Positions 1,638 through 32,533 of a stretch of 50,350 nt of DNA are shown one piece after another (positions within the stretch are counted from its first letter, which is position 1; each line of letters starts with the position of its first letter). Source of the stretch: Phycisphaerales bacterium. Its GTDB lineage: Bacteria; Planctomycetota; Phycisphaerae; Sedimentisphaerales; Anaerobacaceae. Where the stretch lies: contig CP070806.1 in assembly GCA_020343675.1 (NCBI GenBank), positions 3,853,510-3,903,859 on the forward strand, given 5' to 3'. Made by a program: the position numbers and the translations under genes. The notes beneath the pieces are model-generated. The model did no database searches. It worked only from the letters and a program-made list of their open reading frames with translations, and had not been told where the DNA came from.

Positions 1638-3080
1638 TCACTTTTGCCGGTACGGTGCCACGGGCGGCAGCAGCGGCCTGAGTCTGGCTACGATCTCCGG
1701 ATGCTGATCGGCGAGATCGTGTATCTCGGCCGGATCAGTGTTCAGGTCGTAAAGTTCCAGCGTGGGTGCGGTCTTGGCCTTTTTAGCTTTCCTCCCGCCG
1801 GCGCCGGTGGCGATGAGCTTGTACCGCCCGTCAAAGACAAGTGACCAGTTGCCCAGAGAGCTGATTGCATGGGTGCGGGGCAAGTCGCCTCGGCCCTCGA
1901 GGAAGGGACGCAGCGATTTGGAATCCATGTCTTTGGGGATCGCAATGCCGGCGAAGTCCAGGAATGTGGCCGTCAGGTCCAGCGTCTCGGTGGGCCGCTC
2001 ACACACGACACCCTCTCGAATTCCCGGCCCGGCCGCGACCAGCGGCACGCAGACCGAGGGATGATAGGGTTTGGACTTGCTGCTCATGCCGCGGTCGCCG
2101 AGCATTTCGCCGTGGTCCGAGCAATAAACAATCAGCGTGTTCTCAAGCTCGCCTCGTTTGTTCAGCTCCTGCTCGAACACGCCAAGCCATCGATCGATGT
2201 TGTGGATCATCGCGGCGTAATTGCGCCTCTTGGCGGACCAGTCATTCCCCTTGCCCGCTCGCGGCGGCGGAAATTTCTCATCCCTCCACTTCTTGTACAT
2301 ACTCTTGGTGACATCCATCGGCGGGTGCGGCCCATTGAAGTTGATCTGAATAAACCAGGGCGTTCCCCGGGGCACTGAGCGGATAAGATTCAGGCCGTTG
2401 TTGGCAATCCAGTTATCGCAGTACACATCCTCAGGGACCAGAGACGGCCCCGCATAGTCGTGGTCCAGCGTTTTGAAATTCTTCAGGTGAGCCTCCACAA
2501 GGCCCCGGCTTTCGAGAAAGGCAAAATAAGGCTCGGGTTTGTCACCGTCTTTGTAGGCATTCGCGCCGTCCATTTTGCCCGCGTTGTCGATGCCGTTGGT
2601 GAATCCCCAGGCGTCCAGCAGCGAGGGCTTGCCTTGCCGGTGATGCTTTCCGTCCAGGCTCCAGTTCTTGCCCGGCTTGTCCAGGTCGAACTTGCCGCAT
2701 CCGAGCACGCGGTAGCCCGCCTTGCGAAGCAGGCTGTACAACGTAGTCTGCTCCAGCGGATAAGGAATGCTGTTGCTCGCTACGCCGCAGTTCGCGTAGG
2801 CCTTGCCCGAGGCCAGGCACGCTCGCGCCGGCGCGCAGACGGGCGCCGGACTCAGCGCGTTGGCCAAATGCACGCCGCGATTTGCCAGCCGTTTGAGATT
2901 CGGCGTGATCTCCGGCAGCTCCGGATTCATGCTCGTCCAGTCGAACCGATGCTGGTCGGGGTAGAAGAACAGAATGTTCGGTCGGGAAACATGTCTGCCC
3001 CATGTGACCTGATCGGTCACCGACAGGCCCGCAACGGCAGCGCCGGAAGCCTTCAAGAACGCTCGTCGATTCATCTTCAT
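1638..3080 (-). CDS. Sulfatase (formylglycine type), Tat leader
   Basis: A 480-residue alkaline-phosphatase-superfamily sulfatase. The leader MKMNRRAFLK is twin-arginine type. The N-terminal domain has the metal-site aspartate in F-Y-P-D-Q (D42) and the modification motif C82-A-P84-A-R86, matching the C-x-P/A-x-R consensus whose cysteine becomes formylglycine. The segment DHGEMLGDRG later in the chain is the usual second metal/active-site region. It should hydrolyse sulfate esters, probably on carbohydrates, outside the cytoplasm. The start has GGAGA six bases upstream. It is the first gene of a two-gene minus-strand run with the enolase-superfamily gene, and is divergent from the PD40-amidohydrolase gene. 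Confidence 0.92.
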   Translation of the reverse strand: MKMNRRAFLKASGAAVAGLSVTDQVTWGRHVSRPNILFFYPDQHRFDWTSMNPELPEITPNLKRLANRGVHLANALSPAPVCAPARACLASGKAYANCGVASNSIPYPLEQTTLYSLLRKAGYRVLGCGKFDLDKPGKNWSLDGKHHRQGKPSLLDAWGFTNGIDNAGKMDGANAYKDGDKPEPYFAFLESRGLVEAHLKNFKTLDHDYAGPSLVPEDVYCDNWIANNGLNLIRSVPRGTPWFIQINFNGPHPPMDVTKSMYKKWRDEKFPPPRAGKGNDWSAKRRNYAAMIHNIDRWLGVFEQELNKRGELENTLIVYCSDHGEMLGDRGMSSKSKPYHPSVCVPLVAAGPGIREGVVCERPTETLDLTATFLDFAGIAIPKDMDSKSLRPFLEGRGDLPRTHAISSLGNWSLVFDGRYKLIATGAGGRKAKKAKTAPTLELYDLNTDPAEIHDLADQHPEIVARLRPLLPPVAPYRQK

Positions 3081-16003: not shown

Positions 16004-17500
16004 CTATTCTGGACGCCAGGGCTGTGGGCCGCCATCTTTCGGTTCCAGGAACTTCGCATCGACCTGCCTGTACCAGGCGTGCAGCTTGGCACGCATCTGC
16101 TCGACGCGCTGCGGGTATTGAGCTGCCAGGTCCTCACGTTCGCCGATATCCATCTGAAGGTCGTACAGATGGACCCGACCATCTTCGAATCGTTCGATAA
16201 GCTTCCAATCGCCCATGCGGATGGCGCCGCCCGGGAAGCCGCCTTGGTTGGAATAGTGCGGGTAGTGCCAGTAGATGGCGTCCCGGTCGATGTTTGTGGC
16301 ACCCTTGAGCAATGGGACCAGTGATGTGCCGTCCAAGTGCTGGCTCTTCTGCGGAGGCAGGCCCGCCATATCGAGAATGGTCGGGTAGAAATCCGTACTG
16401 ATTACGGGGACATCACATGCCGAACCGGGCTTGGTCACTCCGGGCCAGCGTATCAGGAAGGGCTCGCGGATGCCGCCTTCGTACAGCCAGCCCTTGCCCC
16501 CTCGCAGCGGCAGGTTGGATGTTGGCGATCCTTCGCTGGTGGAAAGCCCGCCGTTGTCGGACATCAGAATGACAGCCGTACTGTCGGCGATGCCCAGTTC
16601 CTCAAGCTTATCCAGCACGCGACCGATCTGCTCGTCCATGGCCTCGACCATAGCGCCGTAAACCGCGTGAGCCTGGCGGAGGCGTACCTGCCGCTCTTTC
16701 TTCGCAGGCCATACCTGCTCTTCCGGGCCGAACTCTCGCTCGTCGGTGTCCAATAGGTTCTGACGTTTGGCCTTGTACCTGGCGACCAGGTCCTCACGGC
16801 CCTGAAGCGGAGTGTGGACTGAGTAGAACGCCAGATAGAGCAGGAACGGTGTGTTTCTGCACTTGTCCAGAATCTTCATCGATGCATCAGTCAGGACCTT
16901 CGGCAGGTGCGAGCCTTTGGGATAATCGCCCAGCCGGGGGTTCTCGAACGGGGCAAAGTAACCGCCGCGAGGCGAACCGACCGACCAGCCGCCGACATTA
17001 ACATCGAACCCTTGATTCTCGGGCCAGTATTTATCCTCTGTGCCGAGATGCCATTTGCCGAGGAAGGCCGTTTTGTAGCCGTGTTCCTTCAGGGCCTCTG
17101 CCAGAGTAACTTCCTCCAGAGGCATCCAGTCATTGAGCGGTGCGCCGTTGAATCGCCCCGAGCGCTTGCCGCTGAACCAGTTGGTCGCATCGACCCGCGA
17201 GGGATACTTGCCCGTCATGATGCTGTATCGCGTGGGGCTGCACACCGGGTTGGCCGCATAGCCATTCGTGAAGTTCATGCCGGAACGAGCCAGGCGGTCG
17301 ATGTTCGGCGTCTCATAGAAACAGTTCGGATTATTCGCACCGATGTCCATCCATCCGAAATCATCGACGAGAAAGAACACGAAATTCATCGGCTTCCTGT
17401 CTGCAGCAGCGTGTATGGATGCGCGCGGGTGTAACAGCGTGGCCGCAAGGCCCCCGAGCAGGGTCTTCATGAATTCACGTCGCGTGGCATTCTCTCTCAT
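16004..17500 (-). CDS. Sulfatase (formylglycine type), Tat leader
   Basis: A 498-residue arylsulfatase-like enzyme. The leader MRENATRREFMKTLLGG is twin-arginine type. The metal pair D46-D47 (LVDDFGW) and the motif C87-S-P89-T-R91 are intact, so formylglycine conversion is expected. GKWHLG (the active-site Lys/His region) and MSDNGG (second metal region) are also present. It should remove sulfate from a carbohydrate or aryl substrate in the periplasm. GGAG eight bases upstream supports the start. It is a single gene between the plus-strand catabolic run and the divergent oxidoreductase pair at 17736. Confidence 0.93.
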   Translation of the reverse strand: MRENATRREFMKTLLGGLAATLLHPRASIHAAADRKPMNFVFFLVDDFGWMDIGANNPNCFYETPNIDRLARSGMNFTNGYAANPVCSPTRYSIMTGKYPSRVDATNWFSGKRSGRFNGAPLNDWMPLEEVTLAEALKEHGYKTAFLGKWHLGTEDKYWPENQGFDVNVGGWSVGSPRGGYFAPFENPRLGDYPKGSHLPKVLTDASMKILDKCRNTPFLLYLAFYSVHTPLQGREDLVARYKAKRQNLLDTDEREFGPEEQVWPAKKERQVRLRQAHAVYGAMVEAMDEQIGRVLDKLEELGIADSTAVILMSDNGGLSTSEGSPTSNLPLRGGKGWLYEGGIREPFLIRWPGVTKPGSACDVPVISTDFYPTILDMAGLPPQKSQHLDGTSLVPLLKGATNIDRDAIYWHYPHYSNQGGFPGGAIRMGDWKLIERFEDGRVHLYDLQMDIGEREDLAAQYPQRVEQMRAKLHAWYRQVDAKFLEPKDGGPQPWRPE

Positions 17501-23831: not shown

Positions 23832-25373
23832 ATGAACGGAACAATCAAGAGGACGCTCCGCATGGTGATGCGAGTCTGTCCGTGTTCTTTGGCGGCGATT
23901 ATTCTATTGCTTAACGGCGCGGCGTTCGCATCATCGACGGGGCCTGCAGTCAAGACGATGACGTACAAGACCGTCGGTGACAAAGAGCTGAAGATTCATG
24001 TCCATTACCCGTCCGGCTGGAAGGCGTCCGACAGGCGTCCCGCCATCATTTTCTTCTTTGGAGGCGGCTGGACCGGCGGGCGGGTCGAGCAATTTCGGCC
24101 CCAGGCTGAGTATCTCGCCGGTCGTGGACTTCTCGCGGCCCGCGCCGACTATCGCGTCAAGAGTCGCGACGGCGTCACACCCGACAAGTGCGTTGAGGAC
24201 GCCCGCAGCGCTGTGCGCTGGATGCGGCAAAACGCCGAGCAGTTGGGCGTCGATCCGCAGAAATTGATTGCGTCGGGTGGCTCGGCCGGCGGTCACTTGG
24301 CCGCGTGCATGATGATCCCCAAGAGCGTCGAGGCCGACGCCGACGACTTATCGATCTCGACGATCCCGCAGGCGATGGTGTTGTTCAATCCGGTGCTGAG
24401 CTTCGAGAACGATCAGTTGCTCGAACGCCTTAAAGGCGACGAACAGCTCGCCCGAAGGATTTCTCCGACACGATATCTGGACAAGAACGCCCCGCCTGCG
24501 TTGATTCTGTTCGGCACGAACGACCGGCTAAAGATCTTCGGCGACGAATACTGGAAAAAGGCCGAAGCCCTCGGCGTCCGAGCGGACAAATATCTTGCCG
24601 AAGGCCAGGGGCACGGCTTCTTCAACCGCTCACCGTGGACCGAACGAACGCTGATCGCCGTGGACAGGTTTCTCGCGTCCCTTGGATTCCTGAAGGGCGA
24701 GCCGACCGTCACGGTGCCGGAAGTCACCGGCGGACGCGCAAGAACCAGTTCTGTTCGTGACAAAACTCATCCCAATACCCGGAATTGGCCTGGTCTGTTT
24801 GCATCGGATCTGTCGAACGCGGTATTCCCCGAAGGAATCTGGACTTTAGAGGACCGTGTCCTGACCGCCAGCGAGGACCAGGCGATCTGGACCAAAAAGG
24901 ATTACGACAATTTCGTTCTGGACCTGGAGTTCAAAACGGCCTCTGGCACAAATAGCGGCGTCGTCGTTTACTGCACGGACATGAAGAACTGGATTCCCAA
25001 TTCGGTCGAGATACAGATTGCCGACGACTTTGCCGAGCAGTGGGCCAAGTCGCCCAAAACATGGCAGTGCGGCGCGATCTTCGGCCATCTGGCACCAGCC
25101 AAAAGCATGGTCAAGAAGCCCGGCCGGTGGAACCGTCTGACCATAAAGTGCGTGGGCGAAAAGATCGACGTGGCGCTGAACGACGAACACGTCACGTCGA
25201 TGGATATGCGCCTGTGGACGTCCGCCAAGACCAATCCCGACGGTTCGGAGATTCCGTCATGGCTGAACAAGCCTCTGGCCGAACACCCAACCAAAGGAAG
25301 GATCGGTTTGCAGGGCAAGCACGCCGGGGCCCCAATCTGGTTCCGCAACATCAAGATCAAGGAGCTAAAGTGA
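23832..25373 (+). CDS. Secreted alpha/beta hydrolase (esterase) fused to DUF1080 domain
   Basis: A 513-residue protein with a hydrophobic leader (CSLAAIILLLNGAAFA). The first domain (~40-290) is a carbohydrate-esterase/BD-FAE-like hydrolase, with oxyanion loop F-G-G-G-W, nucleophile S151 in G-G-S-A-G-G, D231 and H261. The second domain (~318-512) is DUF1080, the 3-keto-glycoside hydrolase/concanavalin-like family (VVVYCTDMKNWIPNSVEIQI). The fusion suggests deacylation plus cleavage of an acylated, oxidised glycoside, or a binding role for the second domain. An AAAGGA-like site precedes ATG 23832. A sulfatase gene follows after 59 bases. Confidence 0.87.
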   Translation: MNGTIKRTLRMVMRVCPCSLAAIILLLNGAAFASSTGPAVKTMTYKTVGDKELKIHVHYPSGWKASDRRPAIIFFFGGGWTGGRVEQFRPQAEYLAGRGLLAARADYRVKSRDGVTPDKCVEDARSAVRWMRQNAEQLGVDPQKLIASGGSAGGHLAACMMIPKSVEADADDLSISTIPQAMVLFNPVLSFENDQLLERLKGDEQLARRISPTRYLDKNAPPALILFGTNDRLKIFGDEYWKKAEALGVRADKYLAEGQGHGFFNRSPWTERTLIAVDRFLASLGFLKGEPTVTVPEVTGGRARTSSVRDKTHPNTRNWPGLFASDLSNAVFPEGIWTLEDRVLTASEDQAIWTKKDYDNFVLDLEFKTASGTNSGVVVYCTDMKNWIPNSVEIQIADDFAEQWAKSPKTWQCGAIFGHLAPAKSMVKKPGRWNRLTIKCVGEKIDVALNDEHVTSMDMRLWTSAKTNPDGSEIPSWLNKPLAEHPTKGRIGLQGKHAGAPIWFRNIKIKELK

Positions 25374-25432
25374 ATGCGTGCCGAGCGTCTATTTCGCAGG
25401 AGCCTCCGTACATTCCCGAAAGGAGATTTGCC

Positions 25433-26830
25433 GTGAAGACAGAACAGACCCGCCGAGATTTTCTGAGGGCCGCCGCTTTGTCGGCGGCGACGATAGGATG
25501 GCCGGGAATTTGCAGAGGCCGGCAACGTGAGAGACTTCCGAATTTTGTGATTATCTTCCTTGACGATTCGGGGTGGGCGGATTTCCACCCGTTCGCTAAT
25601 CCTTCTTACCGGACGCCCAATGTCGAGCAGCTCGCCGGAGAGGGCTGCCGCTTCCATCAGTTCTACGTACCGCAAGCGGTTTGTTCGGCCTCGCGATCAG
25701 CGCTGCTGTCCGGCTGCTACCCGGGCAGGACCAAGGTCTTCGGCGCCCACGGTCCGAACGCCCGGGGACTCGATCCGAAGTATGCCACAATCGGGCAGGT
25801 TCTGAAGGCACGCGGCTACACCACGGCGGTGTTCGGCAAGTGGCACATCGGCGACCAACCCGACACCCGGCCGCTGGCGCGCGGTTTCGACGAGTCGTGC
25901 GGGCTGATGTACTCCAACGACATGTGGGAGTTCCACCCGGAGAACCCGACACGCTGGGGTAAGTACCCGCTTCAGTTCTGGGACAACGGCAGGGTCACCA
26001 TCGATCGCGTGACCAAAGAACACCAGCCGATGCTCACGACCTGGTACACAGAGCACGCTGTCGATTTCATCAGCCGGAACAAAGACAAGCCGTTCTTCCT
26101 CTACGTCCCGCATTCAATGCCGCACGTGCCGCTGTTTTGCAGCGAGAAGTTCAAAGGCAAATCCGGCACGGGCCTCTATGGCGACGTGATGATGGAGATC
26201 GACTTCTCGGTCGGCGAGATTACCAAGGCGCTGAGGGCCAATGGCCTTGAGGACAATACGCTGGTACTCTTTACCTCGGACAACGGGCCCTGGATTTCCT
26301 ACGGCAACCACGCCGGTAAGACGCCTTACCGCGAGGCCAAGGGAACCGGCTTCGACGGCGGCACTCGCAGCGCATGCATTATGAAGTTCCCGGGAAGAAT
26401 CAAGCCGGGCACGATCTCACAGCGGGCCTTCTGCACGCTCGATGTCCTTCCGACGCTGGCTCATTTGGCGGGCGCGGAGCTGCCGGAGAACCCGATTGAT
26501 GGCAGGAACGTCTGGGACCTGATTGTCGGCAAGCCCGGCGCGAAGAACCCGCACGCATATTATCCCTTCTCCACGGGCAGGAATTTCGAGGGTGTCATTA
26601 GCGGCGACGGGCGCTGGAAGCTGCACCTTCCGCACGGCTACCGAACGCTCGTCGAGGCCGGCAAAGACGGCATGCCGGGTACGTATAGACAGGACAAAAT
26701 CGGCCTGTCGCTGTTTGATATGCAAAACGATCCGTACGAAACCACGAACGTGCTTGAGAAGTATCCGGATGTCACCAAACGCCTGGCAGCATACGCCGAA
26801 CAGCACAGGCAGAGATTCTACGCGCAGTAA
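25433..26830 (+). CDS. Sulfatase (formylglycine type), Tat leader, GTG start
   Basis: The start is GTG 25433, with AAAGGAG seven bases upstream. The same frame is open back to 25040, but that part overlaps the preceding gene and lacks family sequence. The 465-residue protein has a Tat leader (TRRDFLRAAALSAAT), metal aspartates D44-D45 (FLDDSGW) and the motif C84-S-A86-S-R88, which fits C-x-P/A-x-R. GKWHIG and TSDNGP are also present. It should hydrolyse sulfate esters in the periplasm. It follows the esterase-DUF1080 gene and probably shares its transcript, suggesting a substrate carrying both acyl and sulfate groups. Confidence 0.92.
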   Translation: MKTEQTRRDFLRAAALSAATIGWPGICRGRQRERLPNFVIIFLDDSGWADFHPFANPSYRTPNVEQLAGEGCRFHQFYVPQAVCSASRSALLSGCYPGRTKVFGAHGPNARGLDPKYATIGQVLKARGYTTAVFGKWHIGDQPDTRPLARGFDESCGLMYSNDMWEFHPENPTRWGKYPLQFWDNGRVTIDRVTKEHQPMLTTWYTEHAVDFISRNKDKPFFLYVPHSMPHVPLFCSEKFKGKSGTGLYGDVMMEIDFSVGEITKALRANGLEDNTLVLFTSDNGPWISYGNHAGKTPYREAKGTGFDGGTRSACIMKFPGRIKPGTISQRAFCTLDVLPTLAHLAGAELPENPIDGRNVWDLIVGKPGAKNPHAYYPFSTGRNFEGVISGDGRWKLHLPHGYRTLVEAGKDGMPGTYRQDKIGLSLFDMQNDPYETTNVLEKYPDVTKRLAAYAEQHRQRFYAQ

Positions 26831-28243
26831 CTACTTTTCGACGGCCACTGGGATGGGAATATCCTGTCGCAGGAATTGACACGTCCCGCCCGCATCTTCG
26901 CAAACGTAGTATAGAGCGTAGGCAGCAAGGTGTGATGTGCCGCCTGTATCCGCAGGCGCCTGGACTTCGAACTCGAGGCGCCGGGGCTCTGAAGTCTCCG
27001 GTTCCCGGCCCTGGGGGGCGGCGAGCAGTTGGGGCTGCACCTTCCAGCCGGCAGGTGCATCGATCCAAAGCCTTAACGGCTCAGCCTCATTGTTCCAATG
27101 GGCCTTGCGCTGCTCGTTCGGACGCAGTGTCACGTGGACCCGCGCAATCTCCCCCAGCTTGACCTGCGGCGGGACGACCGTCACTTCGGTTAGTATCAGG
27201 CTTTGCGTATCGCGGAAAATCCGCCCTTCGGGGTCCGGCGACTTCAACTTGCCTTGTTCGGTATCGAAATTTCGGTCCGGAGCTGCGAGCTCAGAGCCCG
27301 TGGGCAAGACCTCCAGTTTGACAGGTTCCTCACCGCGTTCGGTGATGTCGAGAGCGGCGGCTTGCACCCAATCGTAAAACGGGTAGGGCTTGGTCATGCG
27401 CGGGCCGTACTGCTCGATGCGCCGGCGCCAAATGTACTGGTTCGGCTCGATCCGCCGGGCTCGGGTCCAGCAGTCCACAGCCTTCTGGAAGTCGGCCGGT
27501 TTTCGCTGCGAAGACTCATACCGCATGCGATAACAGACGCCGAGGCGGAAATGCGCGTCACCGTCGTCCGATTTGACCTTGACGGCCTGCGTGTAAGCGT
27601 CTATAGCCTCGTCAATGCGCGCCGGTCCTGCCCAGAGCACCAGAGCGTCGCCCAGTTCTCGCCATGCGTCGGATGATGGGGCTTGCACGGCGCGGCGGCG
27701 CAAGGCGGCCAGATCCGGCTGAGTGGCCTCCTGTACTCTGGCCGCCGATTCGATGCCTTCGGTCGCGAAAGACTTGTTCAGGAACTCTTGCTCGAACGTT
27801 TCGGCCTTCGGCCGGAGGCTGCGCACAATACCGTGCTCATCAATAGCCACCTCAATCGGCACGCCCCTGACCTGCATGACGTTGATTGGATCTTGCAGGA
27901 TGGGCCAATCCAGCCGCTGCCACTGCGCAAACAGTCTCGAGCGCTGGCGATGCTGCTCCTGTGCGACTGCGAGCACAACAAGCCTGCCCTCTTGGACGTA
28001 CTGCTGCATTTTTGCATTCCAGGCCGGCACGGCCTGGCGGCAGCCCCTTCACCACGAGGCGAAGTGGACGAGCAGCACTTTTCGGCCGCGAAACTGCGAC
28101 AGCGATATGGGCGTCCCGTCCATGATGCTGGGCAACGTAAAGTCAGGGTGAGGTTCACCTATGCGGGGCGAGTAGATTGCGCCCGATGCGGCGACAGAAC
28201 AAAAACAGCCGCAAGTCAGAGTCAACAAATTCAGGTTTCGCAT
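26831..28243 (-). CDS. Candidate selenoprotein: thioredoxin-like (UxxC) - TPR - DsbD-alpha-like protein
   Basis: The frame from ATG 28243 reads a signal peptide (NLLTLTCGCFCSVAASGA) and a redoxin N-terminus (RGRKVLLVHFASW). It then meets a single UGA (28051-28049) and continues R-G-C-R-Q-A to a stop at 26833-26831. The UGA occupies the first cysteine of the thioredoxin CxxC, so with selenocysteine the product is 470 residues with U65-R-G-C68. The cis-proline region G-V-P139 and V-A-I-D-E-H-G follow, confirming the fold. TPR-like helices cover ~190-270. Residues ~350-470 resemble the DsbD alpha domain, with C448-x6-C455. A bSECIS-like hairpin directly follows the UGA. It is probably a periplasmic thiol oxidoreductase. 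It lies 27 bases downstream of the NHL-repeat gene in the same direction. The alternative, a nonsense-mutated pseudogene, is less likely because the rest of the frame is intact and the UGA position is exact. Confidence 0.8.
28019..28051 (-). promoter_or_regulatory. Candidate bacterial SECIS element with UGA codon
   Basis: On the minus strand the UGA (28051-28049) is followed by 11 bases, then CCAGGCC (28037-28031), loop GUGCC (28030-28026) and GGCCTGG (28025-28019). The 7-bp stem is perfect, the 5-base loop starts with G, and the loop begins 18 bases after the UGA. Known bacterial SECIS models ask for a small apical loop with G in its first two bases, about 16-37 bases from the UGA. An outer CUGC/GCAG pairing may extend the stem. 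It would recruit SelB to recode the UGA as selenocysteine. Confidence 0.72.
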
Positions 28244-28270: not shown

Positions 28271-29266
28271 CTATGGTTGTAGCAGGAATTTCTGCGCCCG
28301 CGAGCCCTGGATGTCGCCAAGGTAAAGATTGCCCTTCGTATCCAGGGCGATGCCGTGGACCCAGTCGAGTTCCCCCAGCTTGCCCGGAGGGACCGTTGTT
28401 TTTGGCAGCGGCACGCGCAGGAGAACCTCGCCCTTCAGATTCAACTTCATAAGGAGCTGGTCCGCCGGCGGGGTAACGAGCCACTCATCTGCTCCCTCTT
28501 TCCTCACGCGCGAAGAACCACAAACCCAAAGCTCCCGATCCTTCGTTATCCAAAGGCCCCACGGTGTCATCAGGTCCGCCCAAACCGCGAGCAGCTTGCC
28601 GCTGCTATCGAAGACCTGGATGCGGGCGTTTTCGCGATCGGCGACGTAGAGCCGCCCTTGGGAATCGGCTACGATCGAGTGCGGCAGGGCAAACTGTCCC
28701 GGCCCATCGCCTTCGGTGCCCCACTCGTCCACGTACCTGCCGTTCGCGTCGAAATGCACGATGCGTCTGTTGCCATACCCGTCGCTGACGAAGATATCAC
28801 CGCTCGGCAGCACGGCCATATCCGTTGGCCTGTCGAAGCGTCTCTGGTCGGCCCCAGCGTGGCCCGGCTCGCCAAGCGTAAGCAGCAGTTCGCCTTCGGA
28901 GCTGTACTTTCGCACCGTGTGACTTTCGATGTTTGCCGTCCAGACGTTGCCGGCCGGATCGATCCTGATGAAGTGCGCGCCGGCGAAATCCTCCATGTCC
29001 CAGGCACGGACGAATCTTCCATCAGTTCGGTAAACCTGCACGGCCGGCTGGCTGCGGGTGAAGATATGGACCTGATCCTGAGCATCAATTGTGATACCGG
29101 GCATTTGGGCCCAGGTGAAGTGGTCCGGTTTTTGAGGCCACGTGACATCGACAACGCAATGGATTCCGCCACTGTCCGCCCGTTCTGTGGGCGAGCACGC
29201 GCACCCATGACATAGCAGGGTCGAGAGCACCATTGCGACGGCAAGAAGATAAGGGGTCGAACGCAT
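28271..29266 (-). CDS. NHL-repeat (six-bladed propeller) secreted protein
   Basis: ATG 29266 has AAGGAG eight bases upstream; the frame extends to 29365 but the extra part is repeat-derived and lacks a ribosome site. The 331-residue product has a signal peptide (YLLAVAMVLSTLL) followed by C-H-G-C-A-C, possibly a lipid-attachment site although the -3 residue is not the usual Leu. NHL blades are visible as G-Q-F-A-L-P-H-S-I-V, G-R-L-Y-V-A-D-R-E-N and G-D-I-F-V-S-D-G-Y-G-N-R-R-I. NHL propellers bind proteins or small ligands. Pairing with the thioredoxin-TPR gene immediately downstream suggests a shared extracytoplasmic redox or binding function. Confidence 0.85.
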   Translation of the reverse strand: MRSTPYLLAVAMVLSTLLCHGCACSPTERADSGGIHCVVDVTWPQKPDHFTWAQMPGITIDAQDQVHIFTRSQPAVQVYRTDGRFVRAWDMEDFAGAHFIRIDPAGNVWTANIESHTVRKYSSEGELLLTLGEPGHAGADQRRFDRPTDMAVLPSGDIFVSDGYGNRRIVHFDANGRYVDEWGTEGDGPGQFALPHSIVADSQGRLYVADRENARIQVFDSSGKLLAVWADLMTPWGLWITKDRELWVCGSSRVRKEGADEWLVTPPADQLLMKLNLKGEVLLRVPLPKTTVPPGKLGELDWVHGIALDTKGNLYLGDIQGSRAQKFLLQP

Positions 29267-29296
29267 AGAACACACTCCTTTCAAGGAACACCAAAT

Positions 29297-29324
29297 CAGA
29301 ACACAGAATACAGAATACAGAACA
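29297..29324. repeat. Four tandem copies of a 7-bp unit, CAGAAYA
   Basis: CAGAACA, CAGAATA, CAGAATA and CAGAACA run without gaps just upstream of the NHL gene's start region. A shorter relative (GAATACAGAATATAGAA) occurs near 6621-6637, downstream of the PD40-amidohydrolase. Function unknown. Confidence 0.7.
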
Positions 29325-29368
29325 CCGCCGCAAGTGGCTTCAGTACGATATTCTGCCCCTTTCAACTA

Positions 29369-30699: not shown

Positions 30700-32346
30700 T
30701 TAGGGTTTAGGCGGGACATCCCTGGACCAGTTGTATTCGACGCGATCGGGTGGAAATATCCTCGCCACTAAACGTCCACGCAGCTCCTGGCAGACCTTGC
30801 GATAATTCCGGTCATGTCCGAGGTTGTATCGCTCAGCAGGGTCGTTCTTTCGGTCGAAGAGGCTGATGTCAAGATCCGTCAGCGGACTCTTCGCGGCCCA
30901 GTCCATCTCTTCGCTTCTGAGCCGTCGTCCGCTTCGCGGGTCGGGAGAAACCTGCATCTCGAATGACCAGTGTTCTGTCCGAAGCATGGCACGGCGCCCG
31001 TATGTGAGCTTCTCACTGATTGCTTCAGTGCGAGGGGCCAAGCGGCCCTGAGCGGTTACGGCCAGGTCCCGGCCCTCCAGATGCCCGGGCAGCTTCACCC
31101 CGGCGGCATTTAGGAACGTCGGCGCCAGATCGATAAGCTCGACAAAATCATCGCAGACCCTCCCTCGCGGCAGGCGTCCGTCCGAAGAAGCGGCGATCAG
31201 CGGCACGTGCACGGACACGTCGTAAAACGTGAACTTCTCCTGCATCCCGTGCTCGCCAACCTTGCACCCGTGGTCGGGATTGAACACCATCAGCCAGGGA
31301 CGATCACCGCAAGACGCTTTGAAAGCCCTGATGACCCGGCCGATTTCGCTGTCCACGTAACTTGCCAGGCCGTAGTAGTCCGCTCGCATCTTGCGGATCT
31401 CCGCCTCTTTCATGCCATGGACGCGCAGGTTCTCGTAGGCGGTTCTTGTCTGCCGGCCGAAAGACTCGATCTCAGCTTGCGTTACGCGCGGAAACGGAAT
31501 CGACGCTGGGTCGTAGGCTCTATTAAATGGAGCGGGCGGAAGGACCGGCGTGTGCGGATAGATGTACGAGACACGCAGGCAGATGGGCCGGTCGTTGAAC
31601 GTATTGGACTGAAGATGCTCAATCGCCATGTTTGACAGATGAGCGGTCAGCGTCTGGTCGGCCGAGACGGGATTCGTTCCGCCGATGATCAGTTTCTTTT
31701 CGGTCAGGTACCGCCTGAGGATGCCAAGCTCGGACTCGCGTTCGGCGCCTTTGACCAACTCCGAAGGTCTGGCCTCCTGAATGTTGGCCCGGCCCCAGGA
31801 GTGAAAATCCTTGTCTGCAAAGGCATTAAGGACGTTGTACCACCTGCCGTCAGGCGTGTAAGGCCGGTCTTTCGAGGCCAGCCGGTAGTGGTGCTCCTTG
31901 CCGAAGCTGGCCAGCTCATAGCCGCTGCGGTGCAGCAGCTCGGTGAAGAAGGGCACCGAGAATTCCGTATTCGGATGGGAGTATTCGAATCCATAGACAC
32001 CCGTGTGGTGCGGATACCGGCCCGTGAGCATTGAGACACGAGAGCCCACGCACAGCGGGGCCTGACAATATGCCTGGCGGAACAACACTCCTTCGGCGGC
32101 CAGGGCATCGAGATTGGGCGAGCGGACCCAGTCGTGCCGGCCGTAGGCGCGGATCGTGTCCCAGCGGTGCTCGTCGGTCATGATCCAGAGAATGTTCGGG
32201 CGTTCCCTGCTTGCGGCTTGACCGTAATCGGCGGCGCCGCCCAGCAGCACTGCGCCCGCACTGCCGATGCGTTGGAGGAACGCGCGTCTGGAAATACCGT
32301 GGGGCGACTCTTTCATTTGCTTTTGCTCTTGTGGTCTGGACGTCAT
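30700..32346 (-). CDS. Sulfatase family protein with atypical CVGSR motif
   Basis: A ~548-residue alkaline-phosphatase-superfamily protein with a leader (ISRRAFLQRIGSAGAVLLGGAA). The start could be GTG 32352, ATG 32346 or ATG 32316; none has a strong ribosome site. The metal aspartate lies in M-T-D-E-H-R and a second metal region in N-P-D-H-G. Counting from GTG 32352, the modification site reads C101-V-G103-S-R105, with Gly where formylglycine-generating enzyme normally needs Pro or Ala. It may still be converted by another route, be inactive as a sulfatase, or act as a phosphodiesterase-like relative. It heads the minus-strand unit that continues to the selenoprotein candidate. Confidence 0.85.
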   Translation of the reverse strand: MTSRPQEQKQMKESPHGISRRAFLQRIGSAGAVLLGGAADYGQAASRERPNILWIMTDEHRWDTIRAYGRHDWVRSPNLDALAAEGVLFRQAYCQAPLCVGSRVSMLTGRYPHHTGVYGFEYSHPNTEFSVPFFTELLHRSGYELASFGKEHHYRLASKDRPYTPDGRWYNVLNAFADKDFHSWGRANIQEARPSELVKGAERESELGILRRYLTEKKLIIGGTNPVSADQTLTAHLSNMAIEHLQSNTFNDRPICLRVSYIYPHTPVLPPAPFNRAYDPASIPFPRVTQAEIESFGRQTRTAYENLRVHGMKEAEIRKMRADYYGLASYVDSEIGRVIRAFKASCGDRPWLMVFNPDHGCKVGEHGMQEKFTFYDVSVHVPLIAASSDGRLPRGRVCDDFVELIDLAPTFLNAAGVKLPGHLEGRDLAVTAQGRLAPRTEAISEKLTYGRRAMLRTEHWSFEMQVSPDPRSGRRLRSEEMDWAAKSPLTDLDISLFDRKNDPAERYNLGHDRNYRKVCQELRGRLVARIFPPDRVEYNWSRDVPPKP

Positions 32347-32533
32347 ATTCACTCGGCCGCTCTTATTCCCGGTGATGGCACAGCTTCTTAGTCAACCGAT
32401 GCAGAGCTCATCGTAATCCTCCATGCTCTTGTGTCAAGACTAAATGACTGTGGCCATTGACTGTGCCGGTCGAATCGCTTATTTATGGGATGCTTTCGAG
32501 AAGAAGAATGCGTTTACGGATGGATGGCGCTAC

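Follow-up and report, generated by a model that had tools for sequence, protein, structure and literature searches.

A minus-strand gene in the 50,350-nucleotide stretch of Phycisphaerales DNA analyzed here (the window) very probably encodes a selenoprotein, a predicted exported thiol:disulfide oxidoreductase in which the UGA at codon 65 is read as selenocysteine (Sec). The first-pass annotation had proposed a selenoprotein from the letters of the window, and this proposal is supported by the UGA found at position 65 in all homologs, by a covarying SECIS and by the presence of selA and selD. Sequence comparison strongly supports the reading on three grounds, namely the conservation of the UGA, the covariation of the SECIS and the co-occurrence of the Sec machinery with the gene; the redoxin–TPR–Ig-like architecture is taken from a predicted structure. 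The features of the gene and its candidate active site are the following.

26831–28243 (minus strand): putative selenoprotein gene of 470 codons plus a TAG stop, coding for a predicted exported redoxin–TPR–Ig-like protein; single in-frame TGA, full-length homologs
28049–28051 (minus strand): in-frame UGA, predicted Sec65, first position of W-U-x-G-C; TGA at codon 65 in each homolog spanning the site
28040–28042 (minus strand): Cys68, the putative resolving cysteine of U-x-G-C; column invariant in alignment A1

Conservation of the in-frame UGA

Codon 65 is the sole internal TGA of the frame that runs from 28243 to 26831 on the minus strand and ends in TAG, which confirms the earlier description of a 470-codon frame interrupted solely by the UGA at 28051–28049. 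Also confirmed was the replacement of the first cysteine of a W-C-x-x-C motif with redoxin sequence on both sides: the context of the UGA is KVLLVHFASW-U-RGCRQAVPAW, within the redoxin domain, and the window protein matched the Pfam families PF00578 (AhpC-TSA, E 2.7e-13), its best Pfam match, and PF08534 (redoxin, E 4.3e-10). Ordinary gene callers would end the product at codon 64.

The UGA was present in every one of the approximately 55 distinct homologous sequences that span the site, which come from five bacterial phyla and have identities down to about 40%; no Cys version of codon 65 was found among them. In the taxonomic family of the window, seven other loci from six genomes and five genera were 58–73% identical to the gene over nearly its full length, with exactly one TGA each, and outside this family identity in the aligned set was 41–50%. 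A wider scan, with one genome per species and peptide seeds chosen to skip codon 65, found loci in Planctomycetota, Acidobacteriota, Verrucomicrobiota, Gemmatimonadota and Armatimonadota (names as in the record titles). TGA occupied codon 65 in 31 of the 31 family hits covering the codon, a count to which the copy in the window and sequences present in more than one collection also contribute. The Cys-bearing matches in the same table were TlpA/ResA-like proteins with the alignment confined to the redoxin domain. When 392 genomes of the phylum were searched with a profile, the gene was detected in 42, and all 29 loci read from this search had TGA at codon 65. The homolog check thus supports Sec without exception, and the 31/31 family hits and 29/29 further loci bear out the argument of the first-pass annotation that the placement of the UGA is beyond chance. 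The x-G-C-R residues between the UGA and the GTG codon at position 72 were conserved at the protein level.

Some loci required separate reading. The early end of one homolog (L022) is a homopolymer frameshift, and another frame continues GGTCEFLRQDIPITVTV. An apparent second internal TGA in genome G143 was rejected, being the terminal stop of that gene. One genome (G034, contigs C93 and C125) carries two copies of the gene, with the UGA in both.

A pseudogene, with the UGA arising by nonsense mutation or sequencing error, would agree with the presence of a lone break in an otherwise open frame, and with the origin of the sequence in a fragmented metagenome-assembled genome (MAG). This explanation is vanishingly improbable, given the same UGA in all homologs, from five phyla and independent assemblies. 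In addition, dN was approximately 0.2–0.3 and dS was near or above 1 both before and after the UGA; the region downstream of it is therefore under purifying selection, which disfavors a pseudogene.

Hairpins downstream of the UGA

The published model of the bacterial SECIS comprises an upper stem of 4–16 bp, a loop of 3–9 nt with a G in its first two positions, a distance of 16–37 nt from the UGA and a minimum free energy (MFE) of at most −7.5 (PMC13188914). In the window, one element of this kind follows the UGA.

28019–28037 (minus strand): SECIS-like hairpin CCAGGCC-GUGCC-GGCCUGG, +12 to +30 after the UGA, with the loop starting with GU at +19

This hairpin has 7 bp, a GUGCC loop, a spacing of 18 nt and an MFE of −14.5 kcal/mol, and none of 200 shuffled sequences did as well. 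Across 10 sequences of the window's family, 95.7% of the cells of the +12 to +30 hairpin were paired, with one compensatory pair. In the other lineages, positions +19 to +23 pair with +29 to +33 around a 5-nt loop, and all 220 cells were paired in 44 distinct sequences; pair 21:31 appeared as GC, GU, AU, CG and UA. None of 500 shuffles matched this helix in cells paired, in double-changed cells or in covariation score, a control that leaves shared ancestry in; several sequences that look unrelated nevertheless show the pair swaps. The second loop position was G, followed by G or U, in 44 of the 44 other-lineage sequences. With spacings of 18 or 23 nt, within the published 16–37, both geometries satisfy the loop and spacing constraints of the model (PMC13188914); in some distant members the hairpin taken by itself is less stable than −7.5. 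Taken together, comparison of the sequences strongly supports the hairpin after the UGA as a covarying SECIS in line with the published bacterial model.

A single hairpin common to all members was rejected, because in most members of the window's family the +19/+33 helix is disrupted at pair 21:31 and the +12/+30 helix takes its place. One locus (L057) is able to form both hairpins, which suggests that one hairpin was swapped for the other. Folding of the longer stretch that follows the UGA in the window did not stand out from shuffles (z about −1), so that the case for a SECIS rests on the comparison between sequences. Searches of this region against Rfam gave no SECIS match; the lone hit was to a snoRNA at 16 bits and is attributed to chance.

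The strongest synonymous (codon-level) constraint in the gene (z 13.6) fell on the Val codon at codon position +7 after the UGA (codon 72), which was GTG in 27 of 27 distinct sequences. The UGA might instead be a true stop, with the downstream part made as a separate product initiated at this GTG, which was invariant in the first 27 sequences and at which a listed open reading frame begins. Other members, however, have GTA, ATA, GTC or GTT at this codon, each with a matching change across the helix, and internal initiation therefore fails. The protein-level conservation of x-G-C-R upstream of the GTG also speaks against it, and a start at codon 72 would cut the redoxin fold. Overall, internal initiation is very improbable.

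Selenium machinery and decoding of the UGA

In the window's own genome, both selA and selD scored above cut-off, and an N-terminal piece of selB adjoins selA and ends at a 100-N gap. Covariance model and DNA searches of the assembly gave no selC candidate, the top covariance model hits being Ser, Leu and Tyr tRNAs. Because this genome is a gap-joined MAG, 82% complete and made of short contigs (about 2.65 kb around selA, locus L009) joined by 100-N runs, one of which cuts selB, the missing selC is weak evidence. A selC with a UCA anticodon was found in six of the six tested relatives that carry the gene. A search for all four Sec genes in the same genome, which the first-pass annotation had named as a check, was thus answered for selA, selD and the beginning of selB, and not for selC in this incomplete assembly.

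The distribution of selA followed that of the gene. In a sample of the family and order, selA was present in 7/7 gene-bearing versus 17/92 gene-less genomes (p=2e-5, relatedness not removed), and in the phylum sample in 39/42 versus 237/350 (p=2e-4, relatedness again not removed). All three gene-bearing genomes of the phylum without selA had a tRNA-Sec match over the cut-off, one of them barely (49.4 vs 47). The SelD of the window's genome (L127; G000:C1:3028903-3029829, minus strand) carries a Cys within the active-site loop; the C-terminal stretch fused to it contains a CxxC (RCEPCLKMHL) and by eye looks AhpD/CMD-like.

An open frame across the UGA could also result from its decoding as Trp or Cys, through general recoding or a suppressor. 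TGA, however, is the usual stop of most genes neighboring the selenoprotein gene in the window, which points to a standard genetic code. This normal use of TGA, the co-occurrence of Sec genes with the gene and the conservation of the SECIS make such decoding extremely improbable. Under the Sec reading, ribosomes would decode UGA65 as selenocysteine via SelB, tRNA-Sec and the downstream hairpin.

Architecture, proposed chemistry and relation to known families

The AlphaFold model of the whole protein (pLDDT 87, pTM 0.87) and profile searches gave the following domains.

27764–28171 (minus strand): redoxin (TlpA/ResA-like) domain, residues 25–160, with VP129 at the cis-Pro position; Pfam matches, and model fold Z ~15 to ResA/TlpA-type chains
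27377–27715 (minus strand): TPR region, residues 177–289; TPR profiles in 24 of 25 members, and fold Z ~13 to TPR chains
26834–27241 (minus strand): C-terminal Ig-like beta-sandwich, residues 335–470; AlphaFold pLDDT 94.8, with generic Ig-like sandwiches in fold searches
26879–26902 (minus strand): Cys pair C448-EDAGGT-C455 in a beta-hairpin; conserved in alignment A1

A signal peptide is likely present, as judged by eye. The W-U-x-x-C motif, the cis-Pro and the redoxin fold are those of a TlpA/ResA-like thioredoxin, and the best folds for residues 25–160 were of the ResA/TlpA/DsbE type. The window protein's own TPR scores just below the Pfam cut-offs. The C-terminal domain, which reached its pLDDT of 94.8 when folded alone, had been called DsbD-alpha-like. 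DsbD-alpha is an Ig-like sandwich with two nearby cysteines, a likeness that the domain shares, but no sequence relation was found: hhalign gave E 0.22 to E. coli DsbD, the DsbD_N profile (PF11412) matched only 3 of 25 members, with E 0.064 at best, and the listed fold-search matches were generic Ig-like sandwiches with no DsbD chain among them. Of the chain first described, then, the redoxin and the TPRs stand; the C-terminal end is an Ig-like beta-sandwich, and its identity with DsbD-alpha is not supported by sequence. In A1, C448 was invariant and C455 was at least 90% conserved, one locus (L024) being without the second Cys; the pair was retained in the phylum loci with a visible C-terminus. 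A 669-residue stop-less open frame in another genome (G044:C391:25924-26226) matched the C-terminal domain alone (query 358–461), so this domain may occur in other architectures.

By analogy with TlpA/ResA-type W-C-x-x-C enzymes, Sec65 would be the nucleophile that attacks a disulfide or other oxidized substrate, and Cys68 the thiol that resolves the resulting selenenylsulfide. The TPR domain may hold a partner or substrate, and the C448/C455 pair could act as a second redox relay or as a structural disulfide. A Sec-peroxidase of the peroxiredoxin type would suit the best Pfam match, AhpC-TSA, and the AhpE and Bcp chains found in the fold list at Z 13–14. The best folds, however, are of the ResA/TlpA/DsbE type, and because Sec is at the first position of the CxxC (W-U-x-x-C) and not at the peroxidatic one, a role in reduction or disulfide exchange appears likelier, which leaves the peroxidase an unlikely alternative.

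The surroundings of the gene give no genomic hint of the substrate of this putative reductase, since neighboring genes do not recur across loci; a conserved operon was rejected for the same reason, and the gene looks stand-alone. In the window, the gene of an NHL-repeat beta-propeller protein (28271–29365, minus strand) lies just upstream, its end some 28 bases from the start of the selenoprotein gene; this neighbor is not conserved at other loci. Several sulfatases, GFO/IDH/MocA oxidoreductases and 3-keto-disaccharide hydrolase-like proteins (1638–3080, 16004–17500, 25040–26830 and 30700–32352) indicate that the region around the gene is probably devoted to sulfated-polysaccharide degradation.

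Among known proteins, the ResA, TlpA and CcmG (DsbE) thioredoxins share the fold (Z 13–15), the W-x-x-x-C motif and the cis-Pro, but have Cys in place of Sec and neither a TPR nor an Ig-like part. No NCBIfam model claims the window protein. The nearest, NF041054 (WAxxUGC_long, ResA-like WAxxUGC motif-containing protein), matched 25 of 25 members, and the window protein scored well under its cut-off (62.7 bits vs 300). It too describes a ResA-like redoxin that has Sec in the equivalent place and is followed by a TPR-like stretch, at the end of which stands a related W-x-Y-x-R-Q...KPYY motif, but its active site is U-G-C, versus U-x-G-C in every member of the present family. NF041054-like loci (L117 and L118) with ASW-U-GC and an in-frame TGA, scoring below the NF041054 cut-off, occur alongside the present family in two genomes of the phylum; unlike the present family, these loci are extended at the N-terminus and lack the C-terminal Ig-like domain. 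Because of the U-G-C site, the extension and the related redoxin–TPR core without the Ig-like end, we read NF041054 as a sister family.

Two reviews of prokaryotic selenoproteins (PMC9312934, PMC13188914) list no redoxin–TPR protein in their tables. Two entries in the second, the Prx-like thiol:disulfide oxidoreductase (PF00578, UxxC) and the thiol-disulfide isomerase-like protein (cd02966, UxxC), share an AhpC-TSA/TlpA-type domain and a Sec placed first in UxxC, but are listed with no TPR or Ig-like parts (PMC13188914). Another entry is the "Redoxin family protein" (PF08534, UxxC, HEU0032618.1 / MBA3499694.1), which both reviews list; as described in the tables, it is bacterial and shares the redoxin domain and the UxxC, and the window protein matches PF08534. 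It is somewhat unlikely, even so, that the gene is a real selenoprotein already published under this name, because no entry mentions a TPR or C-terminal domain. The pfam08534 row of the 2008 GOS paper, "Prx-like 3", which we infer to be the same as the review entry, has 2608 Cys homologs and weak pfam matches, whereas no Cys version was found here. The family is likely, though not certainly, undescribed; the earlier claim to this effect is qualified by the sister family NF041054, which is already known, and by the "Redoxin family protein", with which the present family may be identical.

Most known selenoprotein families have Cys homologs, and none was seen for the present one. Tentatively, we consider it possible that the gene represents an undescribed, Sec-obligate, multi-phylum family with no Cys form, in which Sec65–Cys68 and the C-terminal Cys pair would make up a two-center relay in one polypeptide, and in whose branch in the window's family the SECIS would have moved 5 nt upstream by the hairpin swap. 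On the comparisons made here, this is almost certainly a real selenoprotein of a widespread family, each copy found using selenium and no sulfur version seen. Most selenoprotein finders depend on Cys-containing homologs, and the deep-Sep authors state that their own finder may miss families lacking them (PMC12013277); the present family appears to be such a case. If no Cys form exists, it would offer a natural test of when Cys cannot replace Sec, a long-standing question. The two geometries of the hairpin at this one site should also make it possible to trace changes in a SECIS whose bases simultaneously encode protein.
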